A DNA stretch of 64,000 bases from Oryzias latipes. Its lineage: Eukaryota; Chordata; Actinopteri; Beloniformes; Adrianichthyidae. Shown one piece after another: positions 5,904 through 61,000 of the stretch. Below the pieces are notes generated by a model, which worked only from the letters and a program-made list of their open reading frames with translations, had not been told where the DNA came from and did no database searches. Location of the stretch: positions 5,673,240 through 5,737,239 of the forward strand of contig NC_019859.2 of assembly GCF_002234675.1 (NCBI RefSeq). The letters run 5' to 3'. A program made the translations under genes and the position numbers. Position 1 is the first letter of the stretch, and the number at the start of each line of letters is the position of its first letter.

Positions 5904-7859
5904 TCATTCCTTCTCCCGAAACGTAAAGTCACAGACCAGGGAGAGGTGGTCGGACGGGTAGCTGTAGGATGGGAGCCGGTCGGGTCCGATCTGCTCCTCG
6001 GTGGGCATGTCCAGAACCGCGTTTACTTTGAGGGTGTCTCTTGTGTACCAGATGTAGTCCAGAGTGGAACAGCACTCCCCCGTGGCCCGGATCTTCCAGG
6101 ATGTGTACTTTGGTTCCGTCGAGCTGTCTTGGCTGAGTTTTTTGTAGGCGGAGTCCAAACCGAGAGGAGAAACGGCAAAGTGGCGGTACACCTCCTCTGT
6201 TGGGACGGCGTTGAAGTCTCCACAGATGAGCAGAGGTATGCTGTCTTCGCCGAGCCTGGCGCAGAGTTTATTGGTCAGATCCTGAAGCTGCCAGAGGAGG
6301 TCTGATCCCTGAGCGCTGCGAAGCCACTCCCAGCCGGAGCGAGCCTTCAGGTGCGTCACGGCCACGCACACCAGGCTTCCCGTGATGCGGCAACGCAGAG
6401 TGGTCACTACGGCGACCTGCGGAAGGAAGACGCAGCTTAATAGAACGTTTCTTCTCCCCATCGTGCAGAGGAGAGTGTGATGGGACCCACCTGGTTGGTG
6501 GGGATCATGATGGCGTAGAGGCGCGTGCTCGTGCTGTCCAGCAGCTCAAATCTGGACCGGTCGAAGAAGAGCGCGCAGCCGTCGGGGCCGTTGTTGCCCT
6601 CCACGTAAAGACACGGGGAACAGGGCTTGGGGCAGAAGTGACCGCTGTACCCCAAGCCCGCCAGCACGGGTTCAAAGGTGTCGTAATAGTGGTCCACTTC
6701 CTGCAGGCACAGGATGTGTGGTCGGTAGGTGAGGATCTCCTCCAGCAGAAGACATTTTCGTTGGGACCAGCAGAGGGCGTCCAGGGGACACCGGACGAAG
6801 TTGTCCACGCCTTCTCCCAGAGCTGAGGGACACAAGAGTCAAAGGCCACGCCGGTTTAAAGCAGACCTGAGGTAACGACAAACGCGGAGCTACATTAACA
6901 TGAAACACTCCTTTCTAATGCGAACTTCTTGATTTTAACATCCCTTTAGTCATTTCAATTCAGTTCTTGTTTTTCAATGACAATATGAAAAACGACAATC
7001 ACATTTTTACTATTTTCTTTTAAATTAATGATCCATCCATCCATCCATCCATCCACTCTGACTCTGCTGATCTATTTTCAAAGCGCTCTCGGTTGTCTTT
7101 TAATGACGATTATGCAAAATCAGGAAACCTGTGTGGGCGGGACCACTAGCGTGACGTAAGCACGCCCCACTTCCTTTCACCCATAACTGAGAGCTCTCTG
7201 TTTACACTCTCTCCCGCTAGCTTACAGCCCCTCACAACCCCAGCCTAACATTATCAGAGGAACCAAAATGGCGAGTGATGTTTTTATTTGTTTTTATTTG
7301 TTTTTAATTTGAATAAAGAAATACTCAGAAATGCAGTTTAATGTCCTCCATCATCAGCGAAATGTTAAAAAAAGTGGGTCTCTAACCTTTTTAACAGTTC
7401 ATTTTAAATCAATACATATATTTTGTGAATCGTCTGCAGTACCTTGAGCCAGGATGTTCCACTGCATTACCCTGACGGGGCTGTTGGGGGCGCCGTGGCC
7501 ATTATTATTGAGATGGACAAACTGCCTGTGGAGGCGAGGGGGCCGGTCCCTGAGCGCCTCCTCGCACTGCCGCAGCAGCTCCTCTGGGTCAGGAGGCCGG
7601 ACGGAGGAGCCGCTCTGCTGCTGCTGCTGCTGCTGCTGCTGCCACAGAGCACCACAGGTTGGTGTGAGCACCCACCTCTGCATTCAATCCGTTCTTAAGG
7701 AGAGAAAAAAAAAGTCACCAACCTGGTGGAAATCTGGATCCAGGTTGGTGTTGTCCAAATGGCGGGGGTCCAGGTAAGGGCGGGGGGAGCTGTTGCTGCC
7801 CAGGCTCTGAGTCAGGGTGCTGTACAGCCGGGTGGCCCCTCCACCCATCTGACACACTG
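5904..7859 (-). CDS. noct: Nocturnin, NADP(H) 2'-phosphatase of the endonuclease/exonuclease/phosphatase fold
   Basis: Four exons on the minus strand: 7859-7723, 7638-7443 (or from 7677), 6822-6491 and 6416-5904 with the stop. From the Met at 7848 this gives about 388 residues. The catalytic domain shows the Mg-binding LCLQEVDHYYDTF, the VTHLKARSGWE histidine motif, ICGDFNAVPTEEVY and the terminal YPSDHLSLVCDF, all diagnostic of nocturnin. Vertebrate nocturnin removes the 2' phosphate from NADP(H) in cytoplasm and mitochondria and is rhythmically expressed. The first visible exon reads MGGGATRLYSTLTQSL, matching the internal start of the human protein; the codons before it (AVCQ) also resemble the human VCS that precedes it, so an unseen upstream exon probably encodes a mitochondrial N-terminus. 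A (CAG)9 tract sits at the second exon's 3' splice site. Confidence 0.92.
7064..7392. repeat. Interspersed repeat family R (copy in a noct intron)
   Basis: Shares long blocks with 14640-15200 and 37018-37330: CTAGCTTACAGCCCCTCACA, CCTAACATTA, and the right-end block ATGTCCTCCATCATCA before GTGGGTCTCTAA. Reverse copies lie at 16985-17330, 33425-33600 and (partial) 10525-10690. No coding content. Confidence 0.6.
7615..7641. repeat. (CTG)9 microsatellite, CAG/Gln in noct
   Basis: Nine perfect CTG units, read as CAG on the noct strand. They encode up to nine glutamines and provide overlapping AG acceptors at the exon start. Confidence 0.9.
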
Positions 7860-18735: not shown

Positions 18736-20946
18736 TCACGTTGTTGTTGTTGTTTTTTCTCCCAGTCGTTTGCTAAAGTCCAGCATCCGTCTGTCCAGCG
18801 TTGTGCTGAAATGCAGCAGCTGCTGCTTCCGGCTCTTCAGCTGCTCCGCCAAAGACCTGATGGACGCCAGCAGGACGCCGTCACGACTCTGCTGGTCCTG
18901 AACCAGCACTTCGTCCTGCTCAAAGGCTTCCTGCAGTCTCTCCTTTAAGGCTCTGTGGTGGCGCCTGAACCTCTGGGTCTCCTGCTGGTGGTGGTCTCTG
19001 TGCTCGGCGGCTGCTCTGACGTCCTCCGTCACCTGCCGGATGCGGAGGCGGAGTCTGCTGTTTTCCGTGCTGACCTGCTCCAGCTTCACGCTGCAGTCGT
19101 AAATGCTCACCTCCACTGCTCTCAGCTCGGAGGCCTGCTGGTCCAGAAGCGCCGTGTACCGCGCTCGCAGCTCCTCCAGCTCCGCCTTCATGTCGGCTTT
19201 GGCCAGCAGCAGCCCCCTGGTTCCTTCCTCCGCCTCCTGACTCTTGAGCTCCAGCTCGGCGGTCCTCCTCTGCAGCTCCAGAGTGAGTTCTCTCAGAGTG
19301 TCATACCTGGTCAAAGCTTCGTTCCGCTTGGCCTCCGCCTCCCCCAGCGTCTTCTCTTTCTCCTCCACCTCCCTCTGCTTCTCTCTGAGGTTCTCGCCGA
19401 CGCTCTCCGCCTCTGTGGTTTTCTGCTGAACCCTCTGCAGAAGGACGCTCTCCTCTTCTCTGAACTCCGCCTCCCGTCGGGCGACAAGGCTCTTCAGCCT
19501 TTGGAGATCCGCACTTTGAGGCTGTCGCTGGTGGAGAGCGGCCTTTTCCTGCAGCAGCTCCTCGTACCTCCTGACGCTGTTACCGATCTCAGCTTTCATC
19601 TTCTCCGCATGCTCCTCCTGCCTCCTCCTCTCCTCCTCCAGCTGCCGTCTGAGCTGCTTCACCTCATCTCCCAAAAGGCCGACGTTCTTCTTCTCCGCAT
19701 TGACGCCGATGAGAAGCTTCTCCTTGTTTTTCTTCAGGAGTGGCCGGTTGGCCGCCTCCGTCTCCCGTAGGTCTTTGACCTGCCTGTCCATCAGCCGGAT
19801 CTCGTGGTTGCGTTGGGCGATGGCGGCGGCGCTCTGATCCAGCTGCCGCTTTAGCCGCTTCAGCCGCTGCGACACACGCAGAAGCTCCGCCTTTCCGTCG
19901 TTTTCTTCCGCCTGCCTCCGCTTGCAAATCTCCTCCATGTGAGGCAGGGACTCTTGATGGAGCGCCCTCGCCGCCCGGCCCGCCACCACTTTAGCTTCCA
20001 CCGCCGCGATTTGCTCTTGAAGATCGTGAATCCTCTGACTAAACGTCTCCTTTAAGTCGTGCAACTCCTGTTTACGATTCTCCCACTGCTCCGTCAGTTC
20101 TTGATACCTTCGGGTCTCATCTTCTAGCTGTAGCTCACACTGTTGCCATGACGACTTCAGTCTCACCACATTGGTCTCCAGTTCGGCCACATGAACACTG
20201 TGTTCCTCCAGATTTCTGCGCGTTTCCTCTTTCCGTTTGTTGACTCGGTCTATTTCTTGGTTTCTCATCTTCACGGCTTCAAACCGGCGATCGATTTCCT
20301 CCTGGATCTCCTCCACCTGTCCGAGGAGGCCGGCCTTCAGCTCCGGAAAAGCCTCGCGCTCCAGAGTCGTGCTCTGCTGCAGAGTTTGGAGTTCTTGCTC
20401 CGCAGCATTTATGGAGGACTTCAGCTCCTCCATCAGCTCATAGCTCTCCTCCAGCTTCCCCTGCCGCCTCTCTTTTTGGATGAGGAGATCCTGTAAGGTG
20501 GCAACAACCTCCTCCAGGTGACTCCTGGCTGTCTCCTGCTCTGCCTGCAGCTCCTTGTTTTGGCTCTGGACTTCCAGCAGCTTGGTGGCGGCCTCCTGGT
20601 GGAGCTCGGAGGTGGTGCTGAGGTCTTTGCGCAGCGCCTCCATCTCCTCCGCGTGGGCTGCCCGGGCCGCGGCCGCGTGCGCCGTCACCTCCCCGCGTAG
20701 GCGCTCGCGGACGCCGCTCACCTGGTGCCCCCGCTTCCCGTTTTCTCTCGTCTCCACCTCCAAACGCTCGTGAGCCGCGCGCCGGTCCGCCTCCAGCTGG
20801 GAGACCGTGGCGCCGACGTCCGACAGCAGGATGCTGGCTTCCGGGGCCCCCGGGGCCCCATCCTCCCGCAGTTGCCGGTTCAGCTCCTCCAGGTGCTCAA
20901 GGGCCACCAGAACGGCGGGGAATTCCGGGACCAAACGGGACGCCAT
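18736..20946 (-). CDS. Intronless coiled-coil protein, CCDC175-like (tentative)
   Basis: A single open frame of 736 codons, almost entirely heptad-like coiled coil rich in E, Q, L, R and K, with no enzyme motif, signal peptide or membrane segment. The start MASRLVPEFPAVLVALEHLE has a good context (GAAATGG). The N-terminal pattern (ALEHLEELNRQL, then EASILLSDVGATVSQLEADR) resembles the opening of vertebrate CCDC175 as I remember it; other axonemal coiled-coil families are possible, so no symbol is given. The C-terminus ends in a threonine run. Absence of introns in such a long gene suggests a retrocopy that kept function, or an ancestral single-exon gene. A perfect RFX X-box lies about 106 bp upstream, hinting at expression in ciliated cells or sperm. 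Confidence 0.8.
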   Translation of the reverse strand: MASRLVPEFPAVLVALEHLEELNRQLREDGAPGAPEASILLSDVGATVSQLEADRRAAHERLEVETRENGKRGHQVSGVRERLRGEVTAHAAAARAAHAEEMEALRKDLSTTSELHQEAATKLLEVQSQNKELQAEQETARSHLEEVVATLQDLLIQKERRQGKLEESYELMEELKSSINAAEQELQTLQQSTTLEREAFPELKAGLLGQVEEIQEEIDRRFEAVKMRNQEIDRVNKRKEETRRNLEEHSVHVAELETNVVRLKSSWQQCELQLEDETRRYQELTEQWENRKQELHDLKETFSQRIHDLQEQIAAVEAKVVAGRAARALHQESLPHMEEICKRRQAEENDGKAELLRVSQRLKRLKRQLDQSAAAIAQRNHEIRLMDRQVKDLRETEAANRPLLKKNKEKLLIGVNAEKKNVGLLGDEVKQLRRQLEEERRRQEEHAEKMKAEIGNSVRRYEELLQEKAALHQRQPQSADLQRLKSLVARREAEFREEESVLLQRVQQKTTEAESVGENLREKQREVEEKEKTLGEAEAKRNEALTRYDTLRELTLELQRRTAELELKSQEAEEGTRGLLLAKADMKAELEELRARYTALLDQQASELRAVEVSIYDCSVKLEQVSTENSRLRLRIRQVTEDVRAAAEHRDHHQQETQRFRRHHRALKERLQEAFEQDEVLVQDQQSRDGVLLASIRSLAEQLKSRKQQLLHFSTTLDRRMLDFSKRLGEKTTTTT

Positions 20947-21051
20947 TTCTTCTTAAATCCCGCTTTTGGTTGTTTCTAGCTTCGCGTCAGAACGAACGAA
21001 CGGGACGCCGAGTCAGGTCACGAACGGATACCGTCGCTAGTTTATGATCAG

Positions 21052-22675: not shown

Positions 22676-22956
22676 TGAGGCGTTGTTGTCGGTCGACGGA
22701 AAAAGACGTAAAAAGCATAGAAATGTAGCGCATAAAATGGACGTTAATAACCCAAACAGGTTGCTGATGGTTTAAAAATTTAAGTAGTAATTTCTGTTGG
22801 AATAAATAAAATCATTCAGCTGTTAGGTGGACTTTGTGTTTGGTTCTTGAGTCGCGTTCTAAAACGGACACACGATTGCATCTCCGATCTATGTGCTGCA
22901 TCTCTAGCTGCATGGAGCCAGTCGGAAGCTGGCCGGCGTGCAGCTCTGCAGGAACC
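22676..22956 (+). promoter_or_regulatory. Upstream region of BED first exon A, similar to that of exon B
   Basis: Two blocks recur before exon B: GTCGGTCGAC followed by AAGACGTA and GCATAGAA (22690-22720 against 29562-29592), and TCCGATCTATGYGCTGCA (22881 against 29764). Their order and spacing to the ATG are roughly kept, so exon, leader and promoter were probably copied together. Confidence 0.5.
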
Positions 22957-23197
22957 ATGGCTCTGGTCTGCAAGCCCAACTGCAAGTCCGTCGTTTGGAT
23001 GTACTTTGGCCTGAAAGCGGACGGAAACGGGCTGCCCGTGAGGAGCGACGAGGCCGTGTGCCGCCTGTGCAGAAGGGTTGTGCTCGCGAAAGGGGGGAAC
23101 ACCACCAATCTGAGGAGTCATCTGGCGCGACGCCACCGCGCCGAGTTCCTGGACACGTTCCCCCCCGGTACCGCCACGGCTTCTCCGAGAGCCCAAG
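22957..23197 (+). CDS. Alternative first exon A: BED zinc finger of the BED-PR-hAT gene
   Basis: From its own ATG ([20 protein letters not shown]) it encodes 80 residues with a complete BED finger: aromatic WMYF, CRLC, then HLARRH (CX2C...HX4H). It ends at an AAG/GTAATT donor in phase 1, exactly like exon B (29831-30068), so either can splice in frame to 31303. About 60 percent of residues match exon B. The finger should bind DNA. It may be an alternative promoter product, or the remnant of a duplicated gene; no transcript evidence is available. Confidence 0.65.
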
Positions 23198-26100
23198 GTA
23201 ATTCCTCCAACTGAATGGGCACTTTTTTTGTAGAGAATTTAGCTGCTTTGCCCGAAAAGTCCTCTTTAAAGTTAAAGCAGACACATTTTGGACTGAAGAG
23301 TCCGCTCGTCTGGAAAGATTAGAAGAAGATCCACGTTTACTGCACGAGCTGAAGAAGTTGGCTTCCGATTCGCGAGGGAATTAAAGAAACATTCCACTGC
23401 ATCTTTCACACTAAGACCACATAGGAGCGGGTCCTGTTCAAAACCTGGATTAAGTTATAATTACATAGTGAAGAATACATTCAACACTGTTTCTGATCTG
23501 TGAAACCTTGTGATGATTTGAAATAGGATAATTTATTGCATTTTAAATTGATCAACAATATTTATATAAAAAAAATTGGGCAAGAGAGGATGAAGATTAC
23601 TCTGCCAAGAATCTTCTCAACAGTGAGTTGCTATCCCTTTCTCACACACAAAAAAAAAAAAAAAAAACCCCAGCAGCAACCCCCCAACACCCTAACCTCC
23701 CAAGCACATTCCTCAGGTGACTACCATATTTACTAGGGGGGGGTGTATTGGCAAGAGTCTGGCTAGATGATAAATACGCCCCACGATATGATATGTATCC
23801 CGATATTGTACCGGAACACATTTTCTTTTTTTTAAATATGACTTTTTACATTGTAATAAAATTGTCAAATTCTGTTCATTTAATGATCACAATGTTGAGT
23901 ACTGCAACTGTATCTCATATATAAGTTGCTTTGACCCAGGCAAATTCAAAGAGGTTTTATTTTGGTAACTTAAAATATAGAAAGGTAAGAGACAGAGTCA
24001 ACAATGTCTTATTTCCACAACAAAATGTATTTCAGTATAAAAAAAAGGAATGAATGTGCCCTAACAAATAAGGTTCTAAAGTATGATTGAGGAATAAAGT
24101 GCTGTTTATTTTCAATATTGCTAACTGTAGCTTCTCCAATACTTTTAAACGGAGCGTGAAACAGGAGCGGTATGAATCGTACTTCAAAAATAAAGGGGGA
24201 ACAAAAGCACTAATGCTTCGCAGAAACATTACAGTGTGATGATGATGCAGCAGCATGACAGGATGAAGGAGACGCTTTGGTTACATATCAGTCTGCACTG
24301 CACCGCTGCAGCCACGCTTTCTCACACACACGGAAGTAAACCAGTAACGGTCATCGCCGCGATGTTGCCCTTTTTTCAGAGCGTTGTGCACATTAGTAGG
24401 GCTGGGAATCACTGGGTACCTCACAATACGATTTGCGATACATTGCTCACGATAACGATACTATCACGATATGGCGATAATGTGATAATCGGTTTATATC
24501 GTCTCTAACAACTCACGATATATCAAACTTTAATGAAAAAGAACTTGATTATTTTTTAGTTTTTAAACACAATGATAATGAACTGTCCTATTTGGTGTAA
24601 TGAATAACAGACTCTTGTGTAACGTTGCTGAAACTATGACAATTTTCATTTGGAAATATCTTTAAAATTTGGTTAAAAAAATAGTGAACATGAACAGCAG
24701 TGCTATTATTTAGTAAATAATTGCTGTAAACAGGATAAAAAATCAACAAGTCAAGTAGCTGCCAGGCACATTGGTATTAACTTTAAAAAAACAAAGCCAT
24801 AGCCATCACATTATTTAAAAAAATAGCTGTAAATCAGATATTAATTATGTGAACAAATTATAGTGTCTTTGTTAAAAATAAATGACACCATTTAGTGCAA
24901 ATGTGGTGTAAACAAAAATAAAATTCTCCCAGAAAACAAAAATCAAGTAGCTAGGAACTTTCCTTTAAGTTATTAAATACATTAATTGCTTTTAAAATAA
25001 ATGACCAGGGATAAAATCCATGAACTTAAAGTGCATCTAAAAATAAACGTCTTTGTGGGGAAAAGCTGCATGTGATGCATGTTTATATGTTCATGTTTTT
25101 CTTGAGAACCACAGGCTTTTTAGCGTCAAGACGCCGCTCGTCTACCGGTGCTCTGAGAAGAAGCTGTCTAAGGACAGGGATGCCACTCTTTCTGCTGTTT
25201 CCAGCGCCATCTCAACCATAGTTCTGGTCTGGCCGTACAGTGCAGGGATCATTTTGTCAGTATTTCTGAGAGGGAATGTCAAAGCGTGGCTCTGAAGCAT
25301 TCAATAGGAACCCAAATCCCTCATTCTCCATGTCGCTGTAGGGACGGAGCTCCTTGTACATGTAAACAGCAATCCAGTTTGTCATTGCCTCTGCTCTCGC
25401 AGAAGACGGTGGTAGCTTCGCTTGGAAAAAAGTATCCACGCCGGGCTGTGTCGGTTTCAGGCCAGCAACAGCCACGGCTTTCTCACACAACTCCAAGTGA
25501 TGCAGCTTCAATGCTGCCGGCGCGTCTTTTAACTTGCTGCTCTCGCTATTTTCCTCATTTTTCCCTTTGCCGTTTTTGTTTGACTGTGTACTCTTCTTCA
25601 TCCGTCCGCGACAGCCAATCTCGCAACGAGCGCTCCCTATCGACACTCAGACGAATCGTCTTACCAAAGGATGATTAATATAAGGTTTTACAGGGTCTCC
25701 AAACGTGAAGAAAAGGTCGATACTTGATGAAGACGCATCGAGAATCAATCGCGGGACAAAATATCGCGAAAAATCACTATATCGATATTTTGGCACACCC
25801 CTTTCACATCAGTCTGATCGATCTGGTTGCTAAACTAGAATCCATTGCTGGGAGGTTCTGCAGAACTTTGGCCCACTTTGCCAAAAGCATTTTAGCCGAT
25901 GCTAAGTGCTTTAGCCGCTGTGAAGCTGCATTGCTTCACTCATTCTTGTCTGAGCCCGCTAAAAAGCACCGCAATCCGTGTTTTTATGTGTTAATGGCAG
26001 CAACATAGCACAGAGTTTCAGTTCAGTACGCATCCCAAGTAAAAACTAAGTAGTTCATGTCTCATAACAACGAAAAAAGCTGCCTCTAGCTGCAGACTTC

Positions 26101-29100
26101 CTGTTGTCTTGTGTGGTGTAGTGCTGCTCAGAGGATCTGTGTGTTCTGCTGCCAACTAGTGGTCTGAGGGTGAAGTGGACAACAAGAGTCAGACGCTGAA
26201 GGACGCTCAGAAATAATTAAAGAAATATCGTCCTGACAGCATTTTGAATCGATACAAGTATCGCCAAATGAACTATCGCAATATATTGCCTAAACAATTT
26301 TTTTAACACCCCTAATATTTACATTTGAAGTAATGCTAATTAAGCCACCAGAGATAGCCAGCTAGTTTCTACTAGTCAAAAGCAGGCCCTGAAAAGCCTG
26401 AGATTGCTAGTTTAAACCTAACACTGTGATGGAATCAACCTGGATTAATGAGAGTCTTCATAGACATATCTAAATCACAGTAGATGAAGCTTAACGTCCT
26501 CAGGTGGGCTGTTCCACAGGTGAGGCCCACAGTGCTGAAATGTGAGTTTTTGTTCTGACTTTTCAGACCACCAGTAGACCTGCACTTGTGGACCTGAGGG
26601 AACTGGGAGGGTCATAAACTAAACTAATCTGATTGAAAGGATGGGCCAATTCCATGTCAACTTTAATAAACTAATAATACAATAACCTTAATATCGACTC
26701 TGAAGCTGACTGGGAGCCAGTGCAAAGATTTTGAAATTGGAGTAATGTGCTCCTTCTAATCTATATATGTTATGGGGACTTTCCTATTAATCTGACAAAT
26801 ACTGTCAATGTTATTAGAGGAATGATAAACCAATTAGAATGTTTAAACAATACCATGTTACATGGTTTTTCAAACGGAGAAGCTGCAACAAAAATCTGCT
26901 GTTTATTATTTTCTGCCTTTCCTGGAGGGCGTTTCAGTTTGGCCGCTAGGTGGAGCACCCGCTAAGCATTCCACTTTATTCCAGAAGATTTAAGCAAAAA
27001 TCTGTGCTTTAGACCACAAATTGTGACTTTTTAAGAATGTTCCTTTAAAAAAGTTTGATAAATTTATGCCTGTGTAGCATATAAAGCTGTTCACTTAGTC
27101 AGCAAGGTATGTTTAGGTCGACCAAACGTTAGCATTAGCCGTCCAGTGGGAAATTCCATTATACGTTAGCATCAAGCTAACAGACTTTGGCCTTACTGCT
27201 GTTTTGCATTAGGTCACCGGAAAAGGAAAGGCATTAAAGATCGATCTCCACTTTTATGGATCGATTTAGATCAGTTAAGTGATTTTATCAACCCAGCCCT
27301 ACTGATTTAAATTTAAAACATTATGTGCAGTCACATTTAATACATGAAGCTTATGAGGTAATTTATTAGGTCCCCAATGAAACTCGTGCTTACTGTCTTT
27401 TTGACCGGTTCTTTTGTCGTTTCTCTCAAGATGGTGGACATATAAAGAAATTTAAACTTGAGTATTTTTAATTTTTTTTTCAATTTGACAGGGAAAAAAA
27501 TGACACAATCTTAATTAAAAGTCCACTGGAAATGCTGAGAAAATAGCTTTCAAGATAATTGGGGTGGGCCTTTAAGTTAAGTAATGTGCAGTAGCGTGCA
27601 GCTCCACCTACAGCTGACTGCAAAGAAAGCGCCTTCTAGAACCCACACTTCAAAATGTATTAGGTACAGAGGAGCAAAAAAGTATTTCGTCAGCCACCAA
27701 TTTTGCAAGTTCTCCCACTTTAAAAGATGAAAGAGGCCTTTAATTTCATCAATATGATCCACAAATTGAGGAAAAAAATCCAGGAAATCACTTTGTTTTA
27801 TTTTAAAGGATTTGTTTGTAAATTACGGTGGAAAAAAAGTATTTGAATGACCAAAGTTCAACTGAGGTTGAGCTAAGGTCACTTTATCTTCTGGGTATGC
27901 CAATTCTTTTCCTGTTTGTATTTCTGAATGTCTTTTTTTGCTGCTGAAGATAAGAGAATTTCCCCATTGTGGGATGTATAAAGTTTATTTTATCCAATCT
28001 AATCTAATCTAATCTATATATCCTTGTTGGCAATGACAGCGGTCAAACGTTTTCTGTGAGTCTTTACAAGGTTGTTGGTATTTTGGCCCATTCCTCCATG
28101 CAGATCTCCTCTAGAGCAGTGATGTTTTGGGGCTGTCACTGGGCAACACAGACTTTCAACTCCCTCCAAAGATGTTCTATGGGTTAAGATCTGGTGACTG
28201 GCTAGGCCACTCCATGACCTTGAAATGCTTCTTACAAAGCCACCCCTTCATTACCCTGATAGTGTTTTTGGGATCGTTGTCATGCGGAAAGACCCAGCCA
28301 TGTTTCATCTTTAATGCCCTTGCTGATGAAAGGAGGTTTTTCACTCAAAATCTGACGATTCATGGCCTCATTCATTCTTTCCTGTACACGGATTAGATGT
28401 CCTGGTCCCTTTGCTAAAAAATAGCCCCAAAGCACGATGTTTCCAACCCTTATGCTGTACACAATTTGTGTTGTGAACCAGTAATTCATTGGCAGCGACA
28501 GGGTGTGTGTTAGCCGGGGGTCGGTGCTGGCAGCACAGACTCTTCCTGGAAGGGGCTGTTCTCACTTGTCTGGGTCACAATGTGAGAACCCACTCGTTTC
28601 TGTGGATTGGGAGGGGCTGCTCCAGGGTTTTAGAGAAATACTCTGTAATGCATTAACTGATCAAAATACCGCTTTTTTACAGTGTGGAATGAACATTATA
28701 ATACACTTAAAAGCTTAAAAAGTTGATTTTGCATGATATAGGCCATTTAAATTACACTATGGAGAACAATTTAATAATCAATTCCTTCTGTCTGGTTAAT
28801 AACATTTAAGTTCAACATCCATCTCTGTTAATGTTTAATCAGTTTATCCTGAACCTTCCAATTGATTCATACGGTCTTTGTTCATTAAAGAACGGTTTAA
28901 GACAGTTGTACACAAAAGTTAGAATCCAAGTGTCCAGCACCAGTTTATTCATGCAAGGGACAAGCACATTTTGGTTTTTAAGAAAATAACCATTCTTTTT
29001 GTGAGGTCAATACAGAAACATTTTTTTTTTTTTTTTTTATGTAAACAGTTTTTGGGAGGAACTTTTTTTTTTTTTTTTTGGAGCTGGTTAACGGTCCCTT

Positions 29101-32100
29101 TACTTATATAATTACAAAAACACATAGTGTATTATTTGGAGTTGGTTCCGGGAATAAATTATTTAATTTGGCAATTGATGTTTTATTAATATCTGGGATT
29201 TTTTTCAATGTATCAAACCACAATGTAACACATCATCATCATCATCATCAGCCTGTCACGCCACTGCTGGCGGGTGGCCTGCACATCTTACTCCACTCAT
29301 CACGGTTTTGGGCACTTTGGGTCCACGTGCTGCCAAAAATGCAAGAAAACTGTCCAGTTTCATTGAAGATAACGAGTTGTATGAAAATCCCTAGTTTTGT
29401 ATCATTTGTTTGATTGTGATTTTGTTTGTACTGTTCATTTCAATTTTGTGTTATTTTTAATTTAATATTTTTTTCCTCATTATTTCTGCCTTACTGTTCT
29501 GCTCATAGGGTGGTGAGTGTAATAATTTTGAAGATATGAAAAAAAAATCTCTGGTTATTGTCGGTCGACACAAGAAGACGTACAGGGCATAGAATTAGAA
29601 CACATAGATGGGGTGCCATCGTGTCTATTTATCTTTTATTTGACGAGTTTTTGGAAATATTTTTGACATCATTTTACTTAATAAATTGTCAGGCAGTTCT
29701 AAACTGCACATGCAAGAGATGATGTCTAATTTTATGCAGAAGTGGCGCAGCCTTCCAGTGTTTCCGATCTATGCGCTGCAGCTCTGCGGAATCTGCAGCC
29801 GGGGTCTGCAGGGAGAAAGCCGCACAAAACATGGATCTGATCAGCAAGCCGCGAGGAAAGTCCACCGTGTGGATGTACTTTGGCTTAAAAGCCGACGAGA
29901 GGGGGAAGCCTATGAACACCGACAGGGCCGTGTGCCGTCTATGCAGAAAAGTCGTGATTTCTAAAGGAAACACCACAAATTTAAGAAGTCATTTGAGACG
30001 TCGACATCCTGCGGAGTTTATTGAAATCACAAACTTGGCGACCACCAGGGCTTTTGCGGAAGGCCAGGGTAATTATCGTGTGCATCAAATCTAGTTTAAT
30101 TGTTTGCCAAAATGTCGGTTTGCCTCGGACGGATCGATATCTTGCTTTAAGCCTGATACCAAAACAGTACGCGCACGTGCATTTTAAAGTGAGGGATGTG
30201 AGCGCGAGAGAAAATAGTCCCTCGATGTTCTTACTTGATTAAAGTTTAGGTTTCCTTATAATAATCCATCTATTTTTTATTTTCTTTTGTTAAGCTGTGC
30301 CTTTAAGAGTCAATTTTTATTGACGTACCGAAGAGAAAATCATTTCAGGAAAAACGAGCGCGTCCCCTTTAACAGAGACATTATTCTACGCATGCGCAGA
30401 TTGGATACGGCGCAGTTGGCAAACTTTATTGACAAGAAACAAAACAGTGGTTGGAGAAAGTCTTGTAAACATGACACCAAATCTAATGTAGTATTTCCAA
30501 TTTGCATAATAATTTCCAGATAAAACATTTTTAGGCATTAGAGTAACCAAAGTGCCGTTACTTGAAAAAAAAACATTACTCAAATAAAAGCAAATGGTGG
30601 TCACATAAAGATTTAGTTCTTGTTTACACACACACACATATATATAGATATAAATATACATATCACTAATAGAATAGGTTTGGGCAGTTTTTATATCATC
30701 AATAACATGGGAAATACAGCTAATTTAAATTGTCTTGTACTTGTTTTTCATTTTAAAACTTTATTCATAATAAAAGTGAATTACAAAATGTTTTGTCTAC
30801 GACAAAACTAATGGACTTAAAATATTCAAAAGGCAAAGAAAAATGCAAAGCCTTCCTTCAAATACATTTTTATAGAGGAAATAGTATTTGATTTGCATGT
30901 TTTTAATGGGTTTTAAAACTAGACGGTTTCAGCTCATCACAAAATGCACAAACGTCCTATAATTTAGAATAAATATATAAGTAACATTTAATGAAGTAAA
31001 ATATTTTATCTGCTGCAGAAATTCTTTCTCATCACTCAAAGTACCCTGTTTGTTTTTTGCAGTATCTTGTTTTGTTTGACAGCAAATGTTTTCTAAGCTT
31101 CAATATAAAGAAATTTGAAAGAAAAAAAAGATCTAATCTGCATTTTTGTCAGACATATTGATGAAGCCATTTTAGCCTTTTAATATCAGCCGACACAGTG
31201 ATGCTTTTAGCAGTATTTTAACAAAAGTGACATCGTCAAGTAACTTTTTTGAGTCCAAATAGGTAAATAAAGAAACCGCCCCTCTCTTAAATATTTCTTC
31301 AGGTGTGGACATCAACCACGATGAGCTCACAGAGGACGCTGCAATACTCCAAAACCATTCAAACTCCAGTTACGTCCCGGACGCCGTGATCCCACCAGGC
31401 GAGCCGTGGCTCCACGGCGGACCCTGCAGGGCTGTGCTGTCCCTGCCATCCTGTCTGTGCGTGTACCAGGACGGCGGCCCTGGAATGTCCAGTCCGGGGT
31501 TTCCTGGAGAGGGTCGAGGGGAGATGAAGGTGTACGCCAAGTGTCAACTTCAGCAGGGCGTCATGTTCGGCCCATATGTGGGAGAAGTGTGCAAAGGACA
31601 AATGCCAAACAACCTCAAATATGCTTGGGCTGTGAGTAGTTGGAAACAAAAAAAAAAAAAAAACTTTTTTTTAAGTTTACACGCAGGATGTTTATGCAGG
31701 AGACTTCATTGGCTTTAAGCTGATAAAACAACGGGTATCTTTGCAATTACACTGATCAAACATCAGAAAAAATTGAATTAACAGAAGTCATTTTAGGATC
31801 TTTAAATTACTTAAAGTTTACCTTAAATTATATCTTATGGAGGGCAAAAAAATTTAGCTACTGGTTTTATGGTGTCAGTTTTTTTAATGAAAGGTTTGGA
31901 AGTTACTAAATAAGTTTTACCAATTAAAGGGGGGCCCTTTAAGTTGTATTTCTTAAATCATGAAATAAGAGGATTTACTCAGGTTTTTGTTCTTTGAGAA
32001 TTTCATTAAAATAAAGTAGAAATTAGACATTTATTCTAGCTCAGAGATTAATTTTTTTATTGTTTTTTTGTTGCCCACAAATAAAAGTTCCTATTTGCAC

Positions 32101-35100
32101 ATGAATGCAACATTTGCGACCACATGTGCAGCCCTCCAGTCGCTTTCTCATTTAAGAAACTTAAAACAGAATCTGCATTTCAGGGTTTTTTTAATCAGGG
32201 TTTTTCCACTTTGTGGTTAAATAAAAATAAAAAAGGATCGTATTTTCAGGTCAGAGATGATTCTGGATTCTCCTACGTGGATGCTGTGGATGAAAACAAG
32301 TCCAACTGGATGAGGTGAGAAGCTGCATTTCAATAACGGAAAGCTCTTCTTCTGCAGACATGAACTTCTGGACGTTTCTGATCTGCGTTTTCAGATACGT
32401 GACGTATACAAGCAGCGAGGAGGAACACAACCTGGTGGTGTTCCAGTTCTACCGCCACATCTACTACAGGGTTTCCCAGCCTATCTCAGAGGGGACTGAG
32501 CTCAAGGTCTGGATTGGCAGGGATTACGCCTCCCTTTTGGGTCTGGGGATGGGTGAGTGCGCTAACCTGGCGTCATGAGAAAGACGTGAGTGTCGCTCCC
32601 TGAAGTCACACCTGTGCGTTTGGCTGTGGTGCAGGTGACAACGTCAAATGTGAAATCGGAGACAAAGAGGCGGCTCTGCGCCTCCTGCAGGACATTCAGC
32701 TGGTCACCCTGCCTGAGCTGAGCAGCACCTCCCTCTGGTCAGACAGCAGCCAATCACAGAGCCCCATGCCGGTCATCAGCGATGTGACGACCGTGTCAAA
32801 CCCAGAGGCAGCGGGGGATCCAGGCATGATGTCCACCTCTTCCTTCTCCTCCACCTCCCAGAACTCCTTGATCTCCCAGTGTTCTTTCCTCACGGAAAAG
32901 TACGACTTCCTGCCAGGAACGGAGAAGCTGTTGAGCAACCCAAACGCACCCCTGAACAGCCCGTGGCATTTCTTCGGGCTGGAGCCGGACCCCACCGGCA
33001 GGCCTCTGGACCGCAGCACGGCCGTGTGCAAGCTGTGCATGGAGCACGTGAGCTGCGGAGGATCGCTGGATCTCCAGAACCACCTGACCAGCAAGCATCA
33101 CATCAAACTCCGCGACATGGTGAAGGACCGCAGTCTGGCAGCAGGTAACGGCAGAGCTGAGGAGCGGTTCAGATGTTCCTTCCAGACTTTAAATCACCTT
33201 TTTGTTTAGTGTATTGGACACAAAAATGATGCTTTATTGAGGGGAAATACACAAAATGAACACAACTTTTGCCTCACAAACAGGCTGAATTAGATGGTAA
33301 AGTTTGGGTTGGCGTTTGCAAACATTTCCCTTCACTGAGTTTTTTCTCAGGAAAAAGAAACCGTCTCTACATCAGAGGGAAATCGCACGTTTCACCAAAA
33401 GAGTTCAAAATTTGTGGCTTAACAGTTTTCTGTGAGGCTGTAAACTAGCAGGAGAAGGTGTAAAGAAAGGGATGATGGGAAGTCAGGGCAGGCGTGTTAA
33501 CAGTCCTGCCCTCAAATCTGAGGCAAGAACTACTGCCGCTCAGCAGAAACTATGTCCTATAAAATCACACAGGTTTTTGATTAAAGCGAGAAACAAGCTA
33601 ATAACAGATTATGGCGGGCTGGGTGATACGACCTAAAAAAATAAATTATCAGATTAATTTCCAATTAAATTCCAATGATTTCTGATTTTAATTGTTTTTC
33701 CCCTCCCTTTACTTTCTTAAACAAAAACTACTATTTGTATTTTAGTTTAACATCTTTAGGAGGTTGAGCTGCATTTAAGGTGCAACTAAATTCAAGCTCC
33801 GAAAATGTTTTTAAATCAAAGCGGCAGCTGTTCTGGGAGCTTCCGTCTCCATCTCGTAGAGAGCAGAACGCCTCTCGTTTCTGTTTCTCCGACCTTTGTT
33901 GTTGTTAGCCGCCACACAGATTTTACAGCATGTGCTTTGTTGCACCAAGTCTAAAGTCGGAATACTAAACCAGCTCTATAGGGCGGCAGAAACGGATCCT
34001 TTTGTTGGGAAGAAGCTTCCTCTTTGCTAGTTGCCATTTTAACGTTTGTGGTTGACTTTACTTTGAACAACAAAATCCTAAGACAGCGGGATGCTGGGAA
34101 AAAAAAACTCTTCTTCGTGGGAAATTCGAATTAACTGATGAAATGGATTTATCGTCCAGCTCGACTGGGAACGCGTTTAAAAAGTGATGGAAGTGGGTCT
34201 TTTAATAAACTTTTTTTTTTTTTTAAGAAGCAAAACTCAGAGCCATTAAAAGCAGTAACCGTTATATCAAACATGCTTAACCCTTGTGCTATCCGGGGCA
34301 CTTTAACATTGGGAGTTGGGTCATCTAGACCAGTGTTTTTCAACTTTTTTTGAGCCACGGCACACTTTAACCTTGACAAAAATCCCGCGGCACACCAGCA
34401 TCCCAAAAAAAAAAAAAAAGAAGCAGAAACTCATAGTCTGTTTTGATCTACAGCCCCCCCCCCCCGGGCAATCTGACGTGCATTTTTGTGATAATTGTGG
34501 CAGAAAAAGCAGGAAGTTGCAGATGTTTTTTCTAAGAGATGTAATAAAAGTTAAGTTACATACAAACTGTATGTTCGTTGTGGTTTCAATCCGTGTAACA
34601 AGGACGACTCATGTACGCTGAGGCGCTGTCCCTTTAAGCCAATGCATCATGGGAGATGTAGTGTGAATACTGTGATAAAACGGCAGAAAGACTTGCGTCT
34701 CTGAGCTTCATTGTTTTGTTCACTTGTTCCACGGTCTGATACCGGCTTCTGTGGAAAGCTACACCACTAAAGACAAGCTTTAGCTGGTGTTTTTGTTGGA
34801 ACTGAGTGAGTTATGAGCTAAATTGGAACAAGGAAGTGAATACTTTAACCACTTCTGATTGGTCAGACTGATGACATGTGATTAAGCCTTCAAGAATGAT
34901 TGGTGGAGTCGTGTAGACAGTAAAAGCTGCGGGACTTTTCCTTACACAGTTATAGCTGCAGGTAAATCGCGGTGCCGTCATTCTTATCAAAATGTCTTTA
35001 ATAGAATCAATTAAACACAAAGAAAAAAGTATTTTACGATCTTTCACATTCCTAACTACTCAGTGTTTTATCAGGGCCTGTTTGGATGAACAAAGAGCTG

Positions 35101-38100
35101 ATATCCTGGAGATGGTTAATGTTTTTAGGATCAGTTAATGAGGGCAATTTTCCAAGGCACACTTGACCATCTCCCACGGCACACTGGTTGAAAAACGCTG
35201 ATCTAAACCCACTAGACAGTGCTCTGAACCTTTTTTCTTCAATGATTTGTGATCTTCACTGGTGTCCATGGATTACATGAAATCTTTCCACCTTTGTCGT
35301 GGTAGGGATAACACGTCAATGTAAGGGTGGGGTCATCTGGACCCCATAGGATAGCACAAGGGTTAAATAGACTTTTGCAGATGTGCTAAAAATGTACTTT
35401 CTGCATCTTTCTTCTCTATGGAAGCCGTTCCTCTGCGCCCTCTACCAGCGGTCGGCCAGACGGTTTCTTCCCAAGTGGTCAACGCCATCGTCAACTTTCT
35501 CATCACGGACCTCCAGCCGGCGTCTGTGGTGGAAGGCAGCGGCTTCAGGCAGCTGCTGCACACCCTCCTGCCCGCCCACAGGGAGCTGCCCAAGCCCTGG
35601 CTGCTGGAGGGCGTCATGAGGGACCAGCACATCCGCGGCAGGGTGAGCCTGGCTCAGCTGCTGAGGCAGAAGACCGGCGGCGCCGAGAGAGACGAGGTGA
35701 GCGACCACACCGCTCCGCTGGAATGCGAGCCCTGGAAGTGTCAGAGGCCCTCCACCAATCAGAGGGAAGCTCCGCCGTTTGTGACTCTGAGCGGGGAGTT
35801 GTGGCTGCACAGCTGGCAGGGGAACCCGGAGCGCTACCTCACCCTCTGGGCTCACTGCATCGACGAGAACTTCAGCTTTCACAACCAGGCGCTGGCGACC
35901 CGAAAGCTGACCAGCAGCGGGGAAAACTACTTCGAAGCCCTGGAGGCGCAGGTGAAGGCGATGACGGAGGAGTGGGGGGGCTTTCGGCCAAATTTCATCG
36001 TGCTGGGAGTGGAGGGGACGAGCAGGATGGGGATGGACCCCGCGACGAGCGAGAAGAGCGCAGAGGCCACAGGAAGCTGTGCTCACCCAAACTCAACGAC
36101 TTTCTTAGAGCGGGAGGATTCCGCGTCCCCCGAGGAGGTGCGCGCCTCGGAGCCGGGGGAGTTTGGCGAGGGCTTTCCGTTGGTGCCGTGCTTCTTTAGC
36201 TCTGTGCAGGCCGGCATTGAGGAGCTGATGGCGCACCCCGTCATCCGCAAAACTCTCAGCCAGTTCCAGGATCACCTGAGCGAGCTGTTCCTGCCGCCCA
36301 CCCAGAGCAAAGGCTCCCTGCTCGTCCACGCCCACAAGCTCCTGAAAAGCCTCCCCAAGGAGGAGCAGGCGCAGCTCACCTCCTGGGCTCACTGCCGGCC
36401 GGCCTGGAAGGACCTGTACCCTCTGCTGAGCACGCTGGTCAAACACAAAAGCCTCATCTCGGACGTGTTAAAGGAGGTCAAAGGCGAGCGTTCGGCCGCA
36501 GAGTCTGCTCTCGGCGGCTGCCCCCCGAGCTCAACCGCCGCCCCGCAGGCTCTGCGCTCCGAATGGAAGGTGTTGGAGGATCTGTGTCTGGTGCTCAAAC
36601 CGCTGGACGTCGCCTGTCAGACTCTGGCCAAGGAGGCCTTCCCCCGCCTGTCCCTCATCAAACCCATCCTTACCGGCCTGCTGTCGCGCCACTTCGTGGC
36701 CCGGCCGGGAGACTCCTCCTCCATCCTCAAGGAGGTGAAGCGGTTGATGAGGAGGAAGCTGACGAGCTGCTACAGCAGCCCCGCTGTCAACAGGGTCTTG
36801 TGCGTGGCGTGTTCCCTGGACCCGCAGTTCCGTGAGCTGGGCTTCATGGAAGAGAAGGTGAGCTGGGAATTTTCCTTCCTACCTGGCAGCAGACATCATT
36901 GGAAGTTCCTTGAAAGAAATGTTATTTTCACGGTTATGGTTGCTCCCCGTTTAAAGCCTTAATTTAATTTAATTTTTAATTATTTCTACCAATCTGACAA
37001 ACACATTTGTTGGCCTCGCCCTGATCATCTTTTGATCTATTTTAAAAGCGTTCCAGTAGTCTTTTAATTATAATAATAAGGCCGTTTCAATCCACATTTT
37101 TGAACGCCTGTGTTGTTTTCTAGGACCTAGTTTCTGCTCTTGAGTTGTGAACGGAACTGTTGGCACGGAGTAAGTCTCCCCCCTTCCCATCATCCATGCG
37201 CTCATGCGCTCTCCCACTAGCTTACAGCCCCTCACAACCCCAACCTAACATTAGAAACGAAAATAGCGAGCTGTATTGGAGCCGTCCAGCTGAACAGTTC
37301 TGATCCAGATGCCATCGTATGACGTCTGCTTCCGTATCTCCTTCTGGTCGCTGTTTTATTCCCTACATACTTTTGTTAGGATTCGTACATTTTGTAGGTT
37401 TGTTGTTTCAAGATCATAAGATTTGTAATTCGTTAAAGAAAAAAAAAATAAACCCAACTGCTGGAAAACTTCTTCTGCCTGAAGTTTGCGGTCGATGATG
37501 TTTGGCGCCGTCTCGTTGTCTGCAGTCAGGTCCCTCTCGTCTCGTCCTGTGACGGCGTTTGCATGTAACAGCTTTTCTGTCAATGTTCCAGGAGCAGGCC
37601 GCCACCTTCAACTGGCTGAAGAACGAGGCTGTGAGGATCACCAAGGAGAACTCCTTAAAGAAACCGAGCAAGACGGAGGAGCGGCTGAAGAGGAGCGTCT
37701 CCCCCGAGTCACCGGAGTCCGAAAACGACTTACGGAGGAGCAAGCGCCTCAAAGAGTGCCCCCCGATCAACTTCAAAGAGATGGGAGGTGAAGAGAGCGA
37801 CCCCGGAGAGGCGGAGGAGAGCGAGGAGCCAGACCCCGCTTTTCAGCCGGGGCTGTCTGGGATGGAGTTCCTGCTAGGAGACCTGTTCTGCTCCGCTTCC
37901 AAGAACCGGGAGAGTTCTGCGGAGGAGTCGGTCGACATGGAGATATCGGTCTTCAGGGCCGACAAGGGGGCCTCTCTGGGGATGGAGCCCCTGCAGTGGT
38001 GGAGGACCAAGGCGGTGCAGTTTCCTCTCCTGGCGTCAGTGGCTCGTGCCTACCTGGCCGCCCCCGCAGTGGCGGGGAACGCCGCGCAGGAATTCATACA

Positions 38101-38227
38101 GGACGGAACGACGAACAGGAGGAGATCGAACATTCCACCCGAAAGTTTGGACACCATGCTCTTCCTGCACCACAACCACATCTCTGTCACCGACGGCGGG
38201 CCGGCAGCAGCCAGCGACCGGGGCTGA
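22957..38227 (+). CDS. BED finger - PR/SET - BED finger - hAT transposase fusion protein
   Basis: Exons: first exon A 22957-23197 or B 29831-30068, then 31303-31631, 32250-32314, 32395-32552, 32635-33144, 35449-36857 and 37592-38227 (TAA/TGA region; stop TGA at 38225). All joins keep frame; with exon B the protein is 1114 residues. Order: BED finger (about 15-65), PR/SET (about 115-262, with [32 protein letters not shown]), linker, second BED (about 372-420, [19 protein letters not shown]), hAT transposase (435-1114, with [40 protein letters not shown] and the dimerisation region [20 protein letters not shown]). The PR part is PRDM9/11-like. The transposase acidic sites look lost (GELW where D-x-W-T is usual), so it is domesticated. 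Probable nuclear DNA-binding regulator. I know no named gene of this architecture. Confidence 0.8.
23735..26325 (-). mobile_element. Decayed hAT transposon(s), composite, in intron 1 of the fusion gene
   Basis: The ends look like fish hAT termini (GGGGTGTATTGGC at left, TTAACACCCCTAAT at right) and the inside carries repeated ATCGATA/CGATAT stretches. A further terminus-like sequence (GATATTTTGGCACACCCC, 25784-25802) suggests two nested elements. The minus strand from about 25690 to 25135 encodes a hAT transposase piece: [53 protein letters not shown] and [17 protein letters not shown], then a stop. It is broken and much of the C-terminal part is missing. Borders are approximate. Confidence 0.6.
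26395..26760. repeat. Unclassified interspersed repeat
   Basis: The motif TGATGGAATCAACCTGGAT followed by GAGTCTTCATAGACATAT recurs at 40460-40502, and CTGACTGGGAGCCAGTGCAA is a phrase I associate with fish retroelement debris. Class unknown. Confidence 0.4.
27660..28495 (-). mobile_element. Tc1/mariner-like transposon, degraded
   Basis: The terminal-type sequence AAAAAAGTATTTCGTCAGCC near 27677 is typical of a fish Tc1-like element. The minus strand of 28280-28490 encodes the catalytic-domain part [20 protein letters not shown] and frames nearby continue it with stops. It lies in intron 1 of the fusion gene. Not autonomous. Confidence 0.7.
28500..28760 (+). repeat. Interspersed repeat S (copy 1)
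   Basis: Matches the reverse complement of 58500-58775: both share the GTGCTGGCAG core, AAGGGGCTGTTCTCACT, GAGAACCC.CT.GTTTCTGTG and GAACATTATAAT. Likely a MITE; ends not defined. Confidence 0.5.
29553..29830 (+). promoter_or_regulatory. Upstream region of BED first exon B
   Basis: Contains the two blocks also found before exon A (GTCGGTCGAC...GACGTA...GCATAGAA and TCCGATCTATGCGCTGCA). No TATA box is evident at a fixed place. Promoter role is inferred from the shared sequence and the ATG-starting exon that follows. Confidence 0.45.
29831..30068 (+). CDS. First exon B: BED zinc finger of the BED-PR-hAT gene
   Basis: Begins [20 protein letters not shown] and carries CRLC and HLRRRH, a full BED finger, then a phase-1 donor (CAGG/GTAATT). 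It is the nearer of two candidate first exons to the acceptor at 31303. The shared phase and start position with exon A show they are duplicates. Confidence 0.75.
33425..33600. repeat. Interspersed repeat family R (reverse partial copy)
   Basis: Carries AAACTAGCAGGAGAAGGTGT and GCAGAAACTATGTCCTATAA, reverse complements of the family's CTAGCTTAC-side and TAGGACATAG blocks. In an intron of the fusion gene. Confidence 0.5.
34277..35366. mobile_element. piggyBac-like MITE (copy 5), split by a hAT element
   Basis: Left half 34277-34330 and right half 35201-35366, with TTAA at both borders and ends CCCTTGTGCTATC / GATAGCACAAGGG. The hAT insert sits after ATCTAGAC of the family landmark GGGTCATCTAGACCCACTAG. 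Confidence 0.85.
34331..35200. mobile_element. Non-autonomous hAT element inside MITE copy 5
   Basis: 870 bp with inverted ends CAGTGTTTTTCAAC and GTTGAAAAACGCTG, and 8-bp target copies ATCTAGAC (34323-34330) and ATCTAAAC (35201-35208). Subterminal phrases on the cost side (GCCACGGCACACTTTAACC) recur inverted near the right end. No transposase seen. Confidence 0.85.
37018..37330. repeat. Interspersed repeat family R (copy in fusion-gene intron)
   Basis: Shares CTAGCTTACAGCCCCTCACA, CCCCAACCTAACATTAGAAA and the TCTAGGACCTAGTTTCTGC block with copies at 7064 and 14640. Lies in the last intron of the fusion gene. Confidence 0.55.
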
Positions 38228-40719: not shown

Positions 40720-51553
<10,834 letters not shown>

Positions 51554-58000: not shown

Positions 58001-61000
58001 ATCGTCTGGACACTAAATACCCTTACGGTAAGCTAGTTATTCACCTGAGATGCTTTTTACTGTGTATTCATCTGAGGAAGCAAATCTCTTCATGTTCAGG
58101 ATTGTGCTGCACTTTTCGTTCAAGCTTTTTGTCCGGAATGTTGAAAGTAACGCTTAAAATTATATCCTTTTGTCTTTTACTGTCCATAAACATCATTACA
58201 AATATTTATAATTTGCTTAATCAAGATTGTTTTCCTCTTCAAGGTCAACTGCAGTATTTGCATAACAGATTTGTGTGGAGGACGGTGAGGTGTGAAGCTC
58301 TGAGAGGACATGTTTTTGTTTTTCCTACAAAAATCCCTATATGGCTTTAGGTTTTCATGCTTTAATGCATGTAGATCAATAGCGATCATTGGTTTTTGGC
58401 TGGAGTAAGTCCTGATATCTGCAGAGGTTTTCTTTTGGCTGCACAGACAAGTAATCAGGAGAAGTCTTAAGTGATGGGGCTCTAAAAAAGGATCTTTATC
58501 ATTATGGGATCTTTGGAGTCACGATGAAAACTGATTTATTTTGAACATTATAATGTTCATTCCTCACCAAACAAAAACCCCAAATTATTTTGATCCATTC
58601 ACACATTCCTCTAAAAACCTGGGCTCTGAGCGCTAGCCCCGCCCCAATCCACAGAAACAAGCGGGTTCTCAGGAGCTGACGTAGATCAGTGAGAACAGCC
58701 CCTTCCAAGAAGAGTCTGCACTGCCAGCACCGCCCCCAGGCTAACACAAACACCCACTTTCTCCACGGGGGTAGCGGTGTTTGGCAAAGCGGTTTTCCTT
58801 TTATATACACAATACGCACATCCATGAGTGATGGGTGATGGCAAATCTGCAGCGAGACTGAAGGGTTCAATTTAGTTTTAATATTCCTCTCCCCCTTAGT
58901 GTGATCTGTGTTATTATATATTTTATATTTATTTGAATGTTTTGTAATGGATGTAGCCTATTTTTAATCAATTGGTATTTTAAATTGTTTCAATTTCTCA
59001 CTTAACTACAAAAACCCATCAGGACATATGTCCCATAATGCATTGTTTTGTAGTCATAGTGCAGCTTTTAGTCAGTTCAGTACTAAATTTCCAGCTGCGT
59101 TTGGTAGGTTGGGGCCTTGCTGCTCCCGCCCCTTTCTCCTGAAATTTTTGTGATGATTGACAGGTGATGTTGGAGCAAAAACAAAAATATGTCACACACC
59201 AGGTGATCTGAACAGCGTTGTGTCCACCTGGGTGATCTCAAACACGCTTATTGTGCTTCTTGGCTGCACTTATTTGGTGTCATCGAGATAAATTTCCATC
59301 AGTTTTTGAGCCCCTCTCTGATCTCAGGTATCTGTATCGATTGTTCTGATATCCAGTGAACATCGCCTCTTTTTTTTACAGTTTACCTTCTTCTGTCAGT
59401 TTACCTTGTTGTTGCATCTTCAAAAGTGCAGAATAAAATGTGACACTGAATTTGAAACAGAGCATTGTAATTTCTGCATCTATTATTAAAGTATTTATTA
59501 GTAATACAGTGGAAATTAGTAGATTTGGTTAGCATGCTGATTTACGGTATGCGCCCCTAAATTTTCTGGTTGTGCCCCTAAAATTTTCAGTTGGGGGCCA
59601 CTGTGCTCCTAGTGAAAAAAGTTAGTCTGGAGCCCTGTGTAATGTTTTTTTTTTCTCCCACCAGCACTGCTTTTGTTCTTGAATGAGCCGGTTGAATACA
59701 GAAATGCAGAAAAGCAAACCCAGCTGAGTAAATATGTGTTCGGCTTTAACTGGACGACAGAAGTCCAGTTGGAGGCATTCTTTTTCTTCCTCTGGCTGTT
59801 AAAGATCTGCTGTGAGTGTGGAGCTCCTCTCTGCTGCGTTTCCCCCCACTTCTTTCCTGGTTGGGAGCTCCAACCGTCCAAAATTCACACAAACACGATG
59901 CATTAAAACCCCAGCATCCAACAGAGCATCTAAAGTCTGTCGGCTTATTCTGATGACTGAACGAATCATTGTCTTATCCTTCATGTTCAGATGGATGCTG
60001 ATGTTCTCGTCCACAGTGTGCCACGCAGAGCTGAACGCCATCATGAACAAGAACAGCGCGGATGTGAAGGGATGCACCATGTATGTGGCTTTGTTCCCAT
60101 GCAACGAGTGCGCCAAGCTGATCATCCAGGCAGGTTTGTACCGACGACACTTTAGAGCCCTCAGTTCAAGCTTGATAAAGCAACCCAGATGCCCTTTCTG
60201 TATTTTGGGATGTGTAAATGTCAATTTCTTCAACCTGGAAAGAAAAAAACATTGAAATATTTGAATGACTGAAACCTTTTAGGTCATATTTTAAACATTA
60301 TTTTCCTCTTTAAAAGCTGCTCAGATTCCTGATTTCTGCGTACTCATGTCTGTCCAGGTCTGAAAGAAGTGATCTACCTTTCTGATAAGTACCACGACAC
60401 ACCTGAGATGATGGCGTCCAGAAGGCTGCTCAACATGGCGGGAATACAATACAGGTACAGTACAGGCTTTCTTCAGCTTTGAACAGCAGGGCAAGTTACT
60501 GAAAATGGCTTCTTTATAAAGGATAGAGTCTTGACTGAATTGTTGGAGGAGATCAGATCCATAAAATATTCTCAGAAAACCTTTTTAGACTTTTTAAGTC
60601 TTTATTTTAAATAGATGAGATTGGCAGGTGGATCCATTTTGATCTCTTTTAGCCTTTATAGTTGTGTTCTTTTATTATATCTAGTGTTATCTGTTGTGTT
60701 GAGATTTCGCATTCAGCCATCTTTGAAGCTAAGAAAGCACCTGGACCAGGAACAGTAGGCCTTTAATATAAAAGAGAGTTTACAGAAGACAACAGCAAAC
60801 TCCTTGGTGGTGGAGTCTGACCGCCGCCTGCATGAGTGACATGATATAGACGTGTGACATAGTGACATGACTAATAGACTGGAACCAGATATCAGATTTT
60901 TGGGGATATTTGGTTGTTTCATAACTCTTGAACTTTGGTGGATTGTCAGTTGGATGTAGTTGGTCTCCAGTCTTAGGCTCTGCAACCATTTGGACATAAT

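Follow-up and report, generated by a model that had tools for sequence, protein, structure and literature searches.

Does a single gene of the fish Oryzias latipes join a PRDM-type PR/SET domain to BED fingers and a domesticated hAT transposase? The question is raised by a + strand locus within a window of 64,000 nucleotides (NC_019859.2, positions 5,673,240 to 5,737,239 of the forward strand, corresponding to C1:5673240-5737239 in a genome of 734,051,031 bases and 25 contigs), for which a first-pass annotation had proposed such a fusion. Coordinates without a contig name refer to this window, and our searches of the fish's own genome include it. The proposal is supported by an open, phase-consistent exon chain, by PRDM9-clade intron positions, by the absence of a close second copy among the own-genome matches and by altered catalytic residues. 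Based on these features, we put at roughly 0.8 the probability that the locus is a single host gene for a chimeric chromatin protein, in which a PRDM9-type PR/SET cassette lies amid the BED fingers of a domesticated hAT transposase.

The gene model comprises eight coding exons between 22957 and 38227, which stop-to-stop frames and the sequence itself place where the first-pass annotation had put them. Two BED exons, BED1 (22957-23197, 241 nt, with the CxxC...HxxxH ligands of a BED finger) and BED2 (29831-30068, 238 nt), are candidate first coding exons. They are followed by three PR/SET exons: 31303-31631 (329 nt, phase 1 to 0, with an FGPY motif), 32250-32314 (65 nt, phase 0 to 2, ending in ...SNWM-R), and 32395-32552 (158 nt, phase 2 to 1). 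The second of these, which fills in the part of the PR domain left between its two longer neighbors, went unseen in a six-frame domain scan because it is very short. A linker exon carrying a third finger, BED3 (32635-33144, phase 1 to 1), precedes hAT exon 1 (35449-36857, 1409 nt), which spans a Hermes-like DNA-binding segment, an RNase-H-like core and the insertion region, and hAT exon 2 (37592-38227, 636 nt), which encodes an acidic linker and the hAT C-terminal dimerization domain and ends in TGA. All introns are GT-AG with matching phases, as had been claimed; the running phases are 1, 0, 2, 1, 1, 0, then stop, and the donors in chain order are GTAATT, GTAATT, GTGAGT, GTGAGA, GTGAGT, GTAACG, and GTGAGC. 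The joined exons (3,345 or 3,348 nt) contain no internal stop and encode 1,114 or 1,115 residues, and Pfam returned the domain order BED, PR/SET, BED, hAT dimerization on the joined protein. In the BED2 form, the matches were PRDM2_PR (2.3e-34, residues 152-260), zf-BED (5.4e-16, two stretches), Dimer_Tnp_hAT (9.2e-8), and SET (8.1e-5), with a weak Hermes DNA-binding match (0.018) under its cut-off. Scored singly, the BED exons gave 2.8e-9 (BED1), 1.1e-11 (BED2), and 1.6e-4 (BED3), and the zinc ligands of the fingers are intact, those of BED3 as read by eye.

GC at third codon positions is 0.57-0.85 across the eight coding blocks, against a total GC of 0.30-0.57 in the introns. Both hAT exons are open, as the earlier reading had held, and the frame of the 1409-nt exon stayed open in only 1 of 5,000 first-order Markov resamplings. 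A crude consensus score ranks the seven donors in the best 0.8-14% of all GTs between 20 and 40 kb and the six acceptors in the best 7-14% of all AGs in the same interval, which lends the gene model support but not proof. Composition, resampling and splice-site scores thus favor a real gene. The same evidence bears on the view that the locus is a decaying relic, in which a dead transposon and debris of a PR gene, devoid of present function, stay open by chance. That the gene is known from genomic sequence and that at least two catalytic residues have been lost would suit such a relic, but the open frames and clean splice sites of all eight exons, their coding-type GC at third positions, the resampling result, intact zinc ligands and the constraint between the BED copies described below make it very improbable.

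The first-pass annotation had read the exons as one series. The order BED, PR/SET, BED, hAT stands, whereas BED1 and BED2 need not share an mRNA, as both can start translation and both run in phase 1 to the exon at 31303. Since each has its own strong start codon (GGAACC-ATG-G for BED1 and CAAAAC-ATG-G for BED2, contexts of the strong A or G type) and its own phase-1 donor to 31303, BED1 and BED2 are most likely alternative first exons. A serial BED1-BED2 product is unlikely; the one in-phase acceptor before BED2, at 29799, is weak. The two exons are diverged duplicates, identical at 48 of 79 residues and 161 of 237 nucleotides. By the NG86 method, dN is 0.30 and dS 1.05 over all codons, and 0.22 and 1.29 over the first 66 columns, giving a dN/dS of approximately 0.17-0.28; the comparison covers about 80 codons, and its dS is near saturation. 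The exons are therefore under constraint relative to each other. An own-genome search with BED2 gave 36 matches, led by BED2 itself, BED1 (63%), and hAT copies on contigs C7 and C21 (49-51%), so BED1 and BED2 look like the beginning of a hAT transposase, and their duplication is old. A second in-frame ATG, in poor context, lies upstream of each first exon, at 22891 and 29771. Both sit in a well-kept stretch (CCGATCTATG.GCTGCA) despite a dS above 1 between the duplicated exons, and this stretch may act as a promoter element or provide an alternative start. In the first intron, a − strand open frame at 25257-25646 was likened by eye to a hAT DNA-binding segment; it had no Pfam match at 1e-3.

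We then consider the hAT part. Own-genome searches returned at least 7 matches to hAT exon 1 (itself and six at 26-33% identity, with 81 of 95 candidates scored) and at least 28 to hAT exon 2 (itself and 27 at 25-36% identity); these counts are lower bounds, and no close second copy was found among the matches. The first catalytic Asp is replaced by Glu (TAD-M-W in transposon copies, SGE-L-W here), and BLAST alignments show the Glu of the SER-F motif in hAT exon 2 replaced by Ala. An ungapped count from the common EEW would give Glu for the second catalytic Asp, a position at which BLAST and MAFFT instead leave a gap. As aligned, at least two of the three catalytic residues are changed and the DDE triad of an active hAT transposase is not retained, so the enzyme is probably dead. 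A BED finger and a hAT C-terminal dimerization domain, the combination that marks ZBED-type domesticated hAT genes, are both present, and the low copy number and apparent immobility are those of a domesticated hAT. A hAT element that is active, or was until recently, and had picked up host PR exons would likewise carry the hAT domains, but close copies are absent among the own-genome matches, the catalytic residues are altered, and none of the 25 longest inverted-repeat pairs, out of 460, brackets the gene, a search that short or decayed terminal inverted repeats could escape. We rejected this explanation as scarcely credible. Outside the gene, C21:543000-552000 holds a copy of a hAT transposon whose open frame runs to 389 residues and whose first two Asp motifs are intact; it is approximately 50% identical to the BED2 exon across the finger, and related copies lie on C7. 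When the hAT exon was compared by sequence with the Protein Data Bank (PDB), the sole matches were ROR1 kringle-like chains (E 0.016 or worse), which we took as chance. A viral-contig scan matched one pattern stretch and found no relatives, and a single-sequence AlphaFold2 model of the 469-residue hAT exon (mean pLDDT 38.6) was not used.

The intron at 33145-35448, which separates the BED3 exon from the hAT exons, is where the locus could divide into two neighboring genes: one of BED-PR-BED type with its end near 33209, the other a domesticated hAT gene in its own right that starts at approximately 35421, with phases compatible by accident. The BED3 exon does read through in frame (33145-33209) to a stop after 33209, AATAAA/ATTAAA hexamers occur at 33580-33664 among poly(A)-like hexamers spread over 33580-35010, and an in-frame ATG lies just before the acceptor at 35449. 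Yet the phase-1 donor at 33144 fits the phase-1 acceptor at 35449, which has a pyrimidine-rich tract; no GC-rich, CpG-rich 500-base window was found in the intron outside exon sequence, the one flagged (35251-35750) overlapping the hAT exon; and a standalone hAT gene would be without a BED finger of its own. We therefore regard two genes as an unlikely arrangement.

The PR/SET domain places the protein in the PRDM family. The C2H2 zinc-finger array usual in its members was not among the eight Pfam families that matched the joined protein at E ≤ 1. Against the PDB, the joined PR region matched PRDM9 best (2.1e-24), followed by PRDM2 (3.5e-18) and PRDM11 (3.5e-17). The same genome carries a PR gene on C19 that is PRDM9 (1.8e-40, vs 3.9e-26 for PRDM11), with PR exons read as 15485356-15485633, 15485716-15485783, and 15486727-15486917 (278, 68, and 191 nt). 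All four PR intron phases, 1/0/2/1, are common to this gene and the fusion gene, where the exons measure 329, 65, and 158 nt. An own-genome search with PF21549 gave 28 matches, from which 17 PR genes could be assessed at the NWM-R|Y position, a count that leaves out a partial match on C16 (4.66 Mb), the remaining matches being further exons of counted genes. A phase-2 intron interrupts NWM-R|Y in two of the 17, the fusion gene and the C19 PRDM9; the frame is uninterrupted in the other 15, on C11, C16 (26.69 Mb), C20, C24, C13 (5.18 and 23.09 Mb), C5, C9 (29.43, 31.28, and 32.46 Mb), C12, C14, C15, C4, and C23. PRDM9/PRDM11 offer the best placement for the PR domain, and the cassette fits the PRDM9 clade. 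As PRDM11 was not recognized among the PF21549 matches, PRDM11 is a possible donor as well.

The catalytic tyrosines of PRDM9 have been described as Y276, Y341, and Y357 (PMC5519329, in the part consulted; the numbering used here is that of the paper, with a constant offset of 194 in the matched chain). In the fusion gene, the Y276 equivalent (exon 31303-31631) and the Y341 equivalent (exon 32395-32552) are kept, and that of Y357 is Ile (VWIG), so the full triad is not kept. This substitution makes altered methyltransferase activity likely; total loss would be a stronger claim than the sequence supports. The equivalents in the C19 PRDM9 are Y, Y, and P, and this proline is the substitution reported in swordtail PRDM9-beta in the part of PMC5519329 consulted.

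How might such a protein have arisen, and what would it do? A domesticated hAT transposase would have supplied a BED finger, the DNA-binding segment, the RNase-H core and the dimerization domain, and a three-exon PRDM9-type PR/SET cassette may have been inserted between the hAT-derived BED fingers by exon shuffling, which fits because phase-1 introns flank the PR cassette and the BED3 exon likewise runs from phase 1 to 1. The N-terminal finger, BED1 or BED2 according to alternative promoters, would select DNA sites together with BED3, and the hAT C-terminal domain would dimerize or oligomerize the protein. At bound sites the PR domain would be the effector, most likely as a protein-interaction module or an altered methyltransferase, given the Ile at position 357. 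In Hermes, according to the part of PMC10368747 consulted, BED domains bind the terminal repeats at transposon ends and a dedicated domain dimerizes; a DNA-binding multimer with PR as its effector is therefore most likely here as well. A domesticated, dimerizing, DNA-binding chromatin regulator is thus the best reading, in which the single transcript, DNA binding, dimerization and effector action are all inferred. A more specific version seems doubtful: a PRDM9-type writer that has exchanged its zinc-finger array for DNA targeting derived from the transposase, with the BED finger swapped via alternative promoters and the hAT core multimer bringing altered PR domains to selected sites, perhaps meiotic ones or the ends of old transposons. 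The C19 PRDM9 of the same genome has itself lost part of its catalytic residues.

Several points weigh against the single-gene reading. The exon chain comes from the sequence of one genome. Possible poly(A) signals in the intron at 33145-35448 make a short BED-PR-BED product conceivable. The second catalytic Asp of the hAT core has no confident placement, given the gap that BLAST and MAFFT both leave and a profile match that does not reach so far. The PR tree (12 rows, midpoint root) is weak and sets the domain on a branch beside, not within, the PRDM9/PRDM11 group, with 70/86 support; intron positions therefore carry the PRDM9-clade claim. Exon 31303-31631 shows no sign of the PRDM9 CxxC segment with which its C19 counterpart begins. 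Finally, the BED1/BED2 comparison is short and nearly saturated.

Among known systems, PRDM9 and PRDM11 are the best PR sequence matches, but the fusion protein has BED fingers and a hAT transposase in place of a Pfam C2H2 array, KRAB or SSXRD. In ZBED1, ZBED4, and ZBED6, too, BED fingers precede a hAT transposase that has a C-terminal dimerization domain, and several BED fingers occur in ZBED4, ZBED6, and ZBEDX as they do here (PMC3606216, in part); the PR/SET cassette amid the fingers and the multi-exon coding region set the fusion gene apart from them. SETMAR, KRABINER, and CSB-PGBD3 also join a host regulatory domain to a transposase-derived DNA-binding protein, and SETMAR, as here, combines a dead transposase with a domain of SET type (sections of PMC12062965 and PMC8704517). 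However, their transposases are mariner or piggyBac rather than hAT, and the SET class and domain order differ. The CGGBPs, which combine BED with a Hermes DNA-binding domain, are hAT-derived DNA-binding proteins that arose many times in fish and others but, unlike the fusion protein, are without a transposase core, dimerization domain or PR/SET (PMC8097297, in part).

The first-pass annotation knew no name for a PR/SET-hAT fusion. This holds as far as the open-access full-text literature, our scope here, in which we found no report of a PRDM-hAT fusion; eukaryotic protein databases lay outside it. In the parts consulted, PMC10027918 treats transposon-derived metazoan factors and PMC12062965 covers F-box/transposable-element fusions and SETMAR; the term PRDM is absent from the sections consulted of these two papers, PMC3606216 and PMC8097297. 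A survey of zebrafish SET genes (PMC2200798) lists prdm9, prdm11, and setmar, and the part consulted contains neither hAT nor BED as a word. Provisionally, then, PR/SET-hAT is a new combination within the known host-transposase fusion genes, and an annotation may already exist. New transcription factors are known to arise when DNA-binding modules of transposases fuse to host regulatory domains, and the SET-type example we found is SETMAR, with mariner. If the gene is as we propose, it would show a SET-type domain paired with a transposase for a second time, independently, and would be a new type of chromatin regulator, and its phase-matched PRDM9-type cassette in a hAT-derived gene would be a clear case of exon borders revealing the donor. 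The paired BED first exons allow a direct test of whether a finger swap changes DNA targets.

Three neighboring exons with Pfam matches are usable as synteny anchors: an Ets domain exon (205-1142, +), an Exo_endo_phos exon (5907-6545, −), which we take to be nocturnin-like, and a dCMP deaminase exon (59803-60252, +). A single 738-residue open frame at 18739-20952 on the − strand, rich in coiled-coil-like sequence, had no Pfam match. Downstream of the fusion gene lies a perfect (TA)56 tract at 41133-41244.

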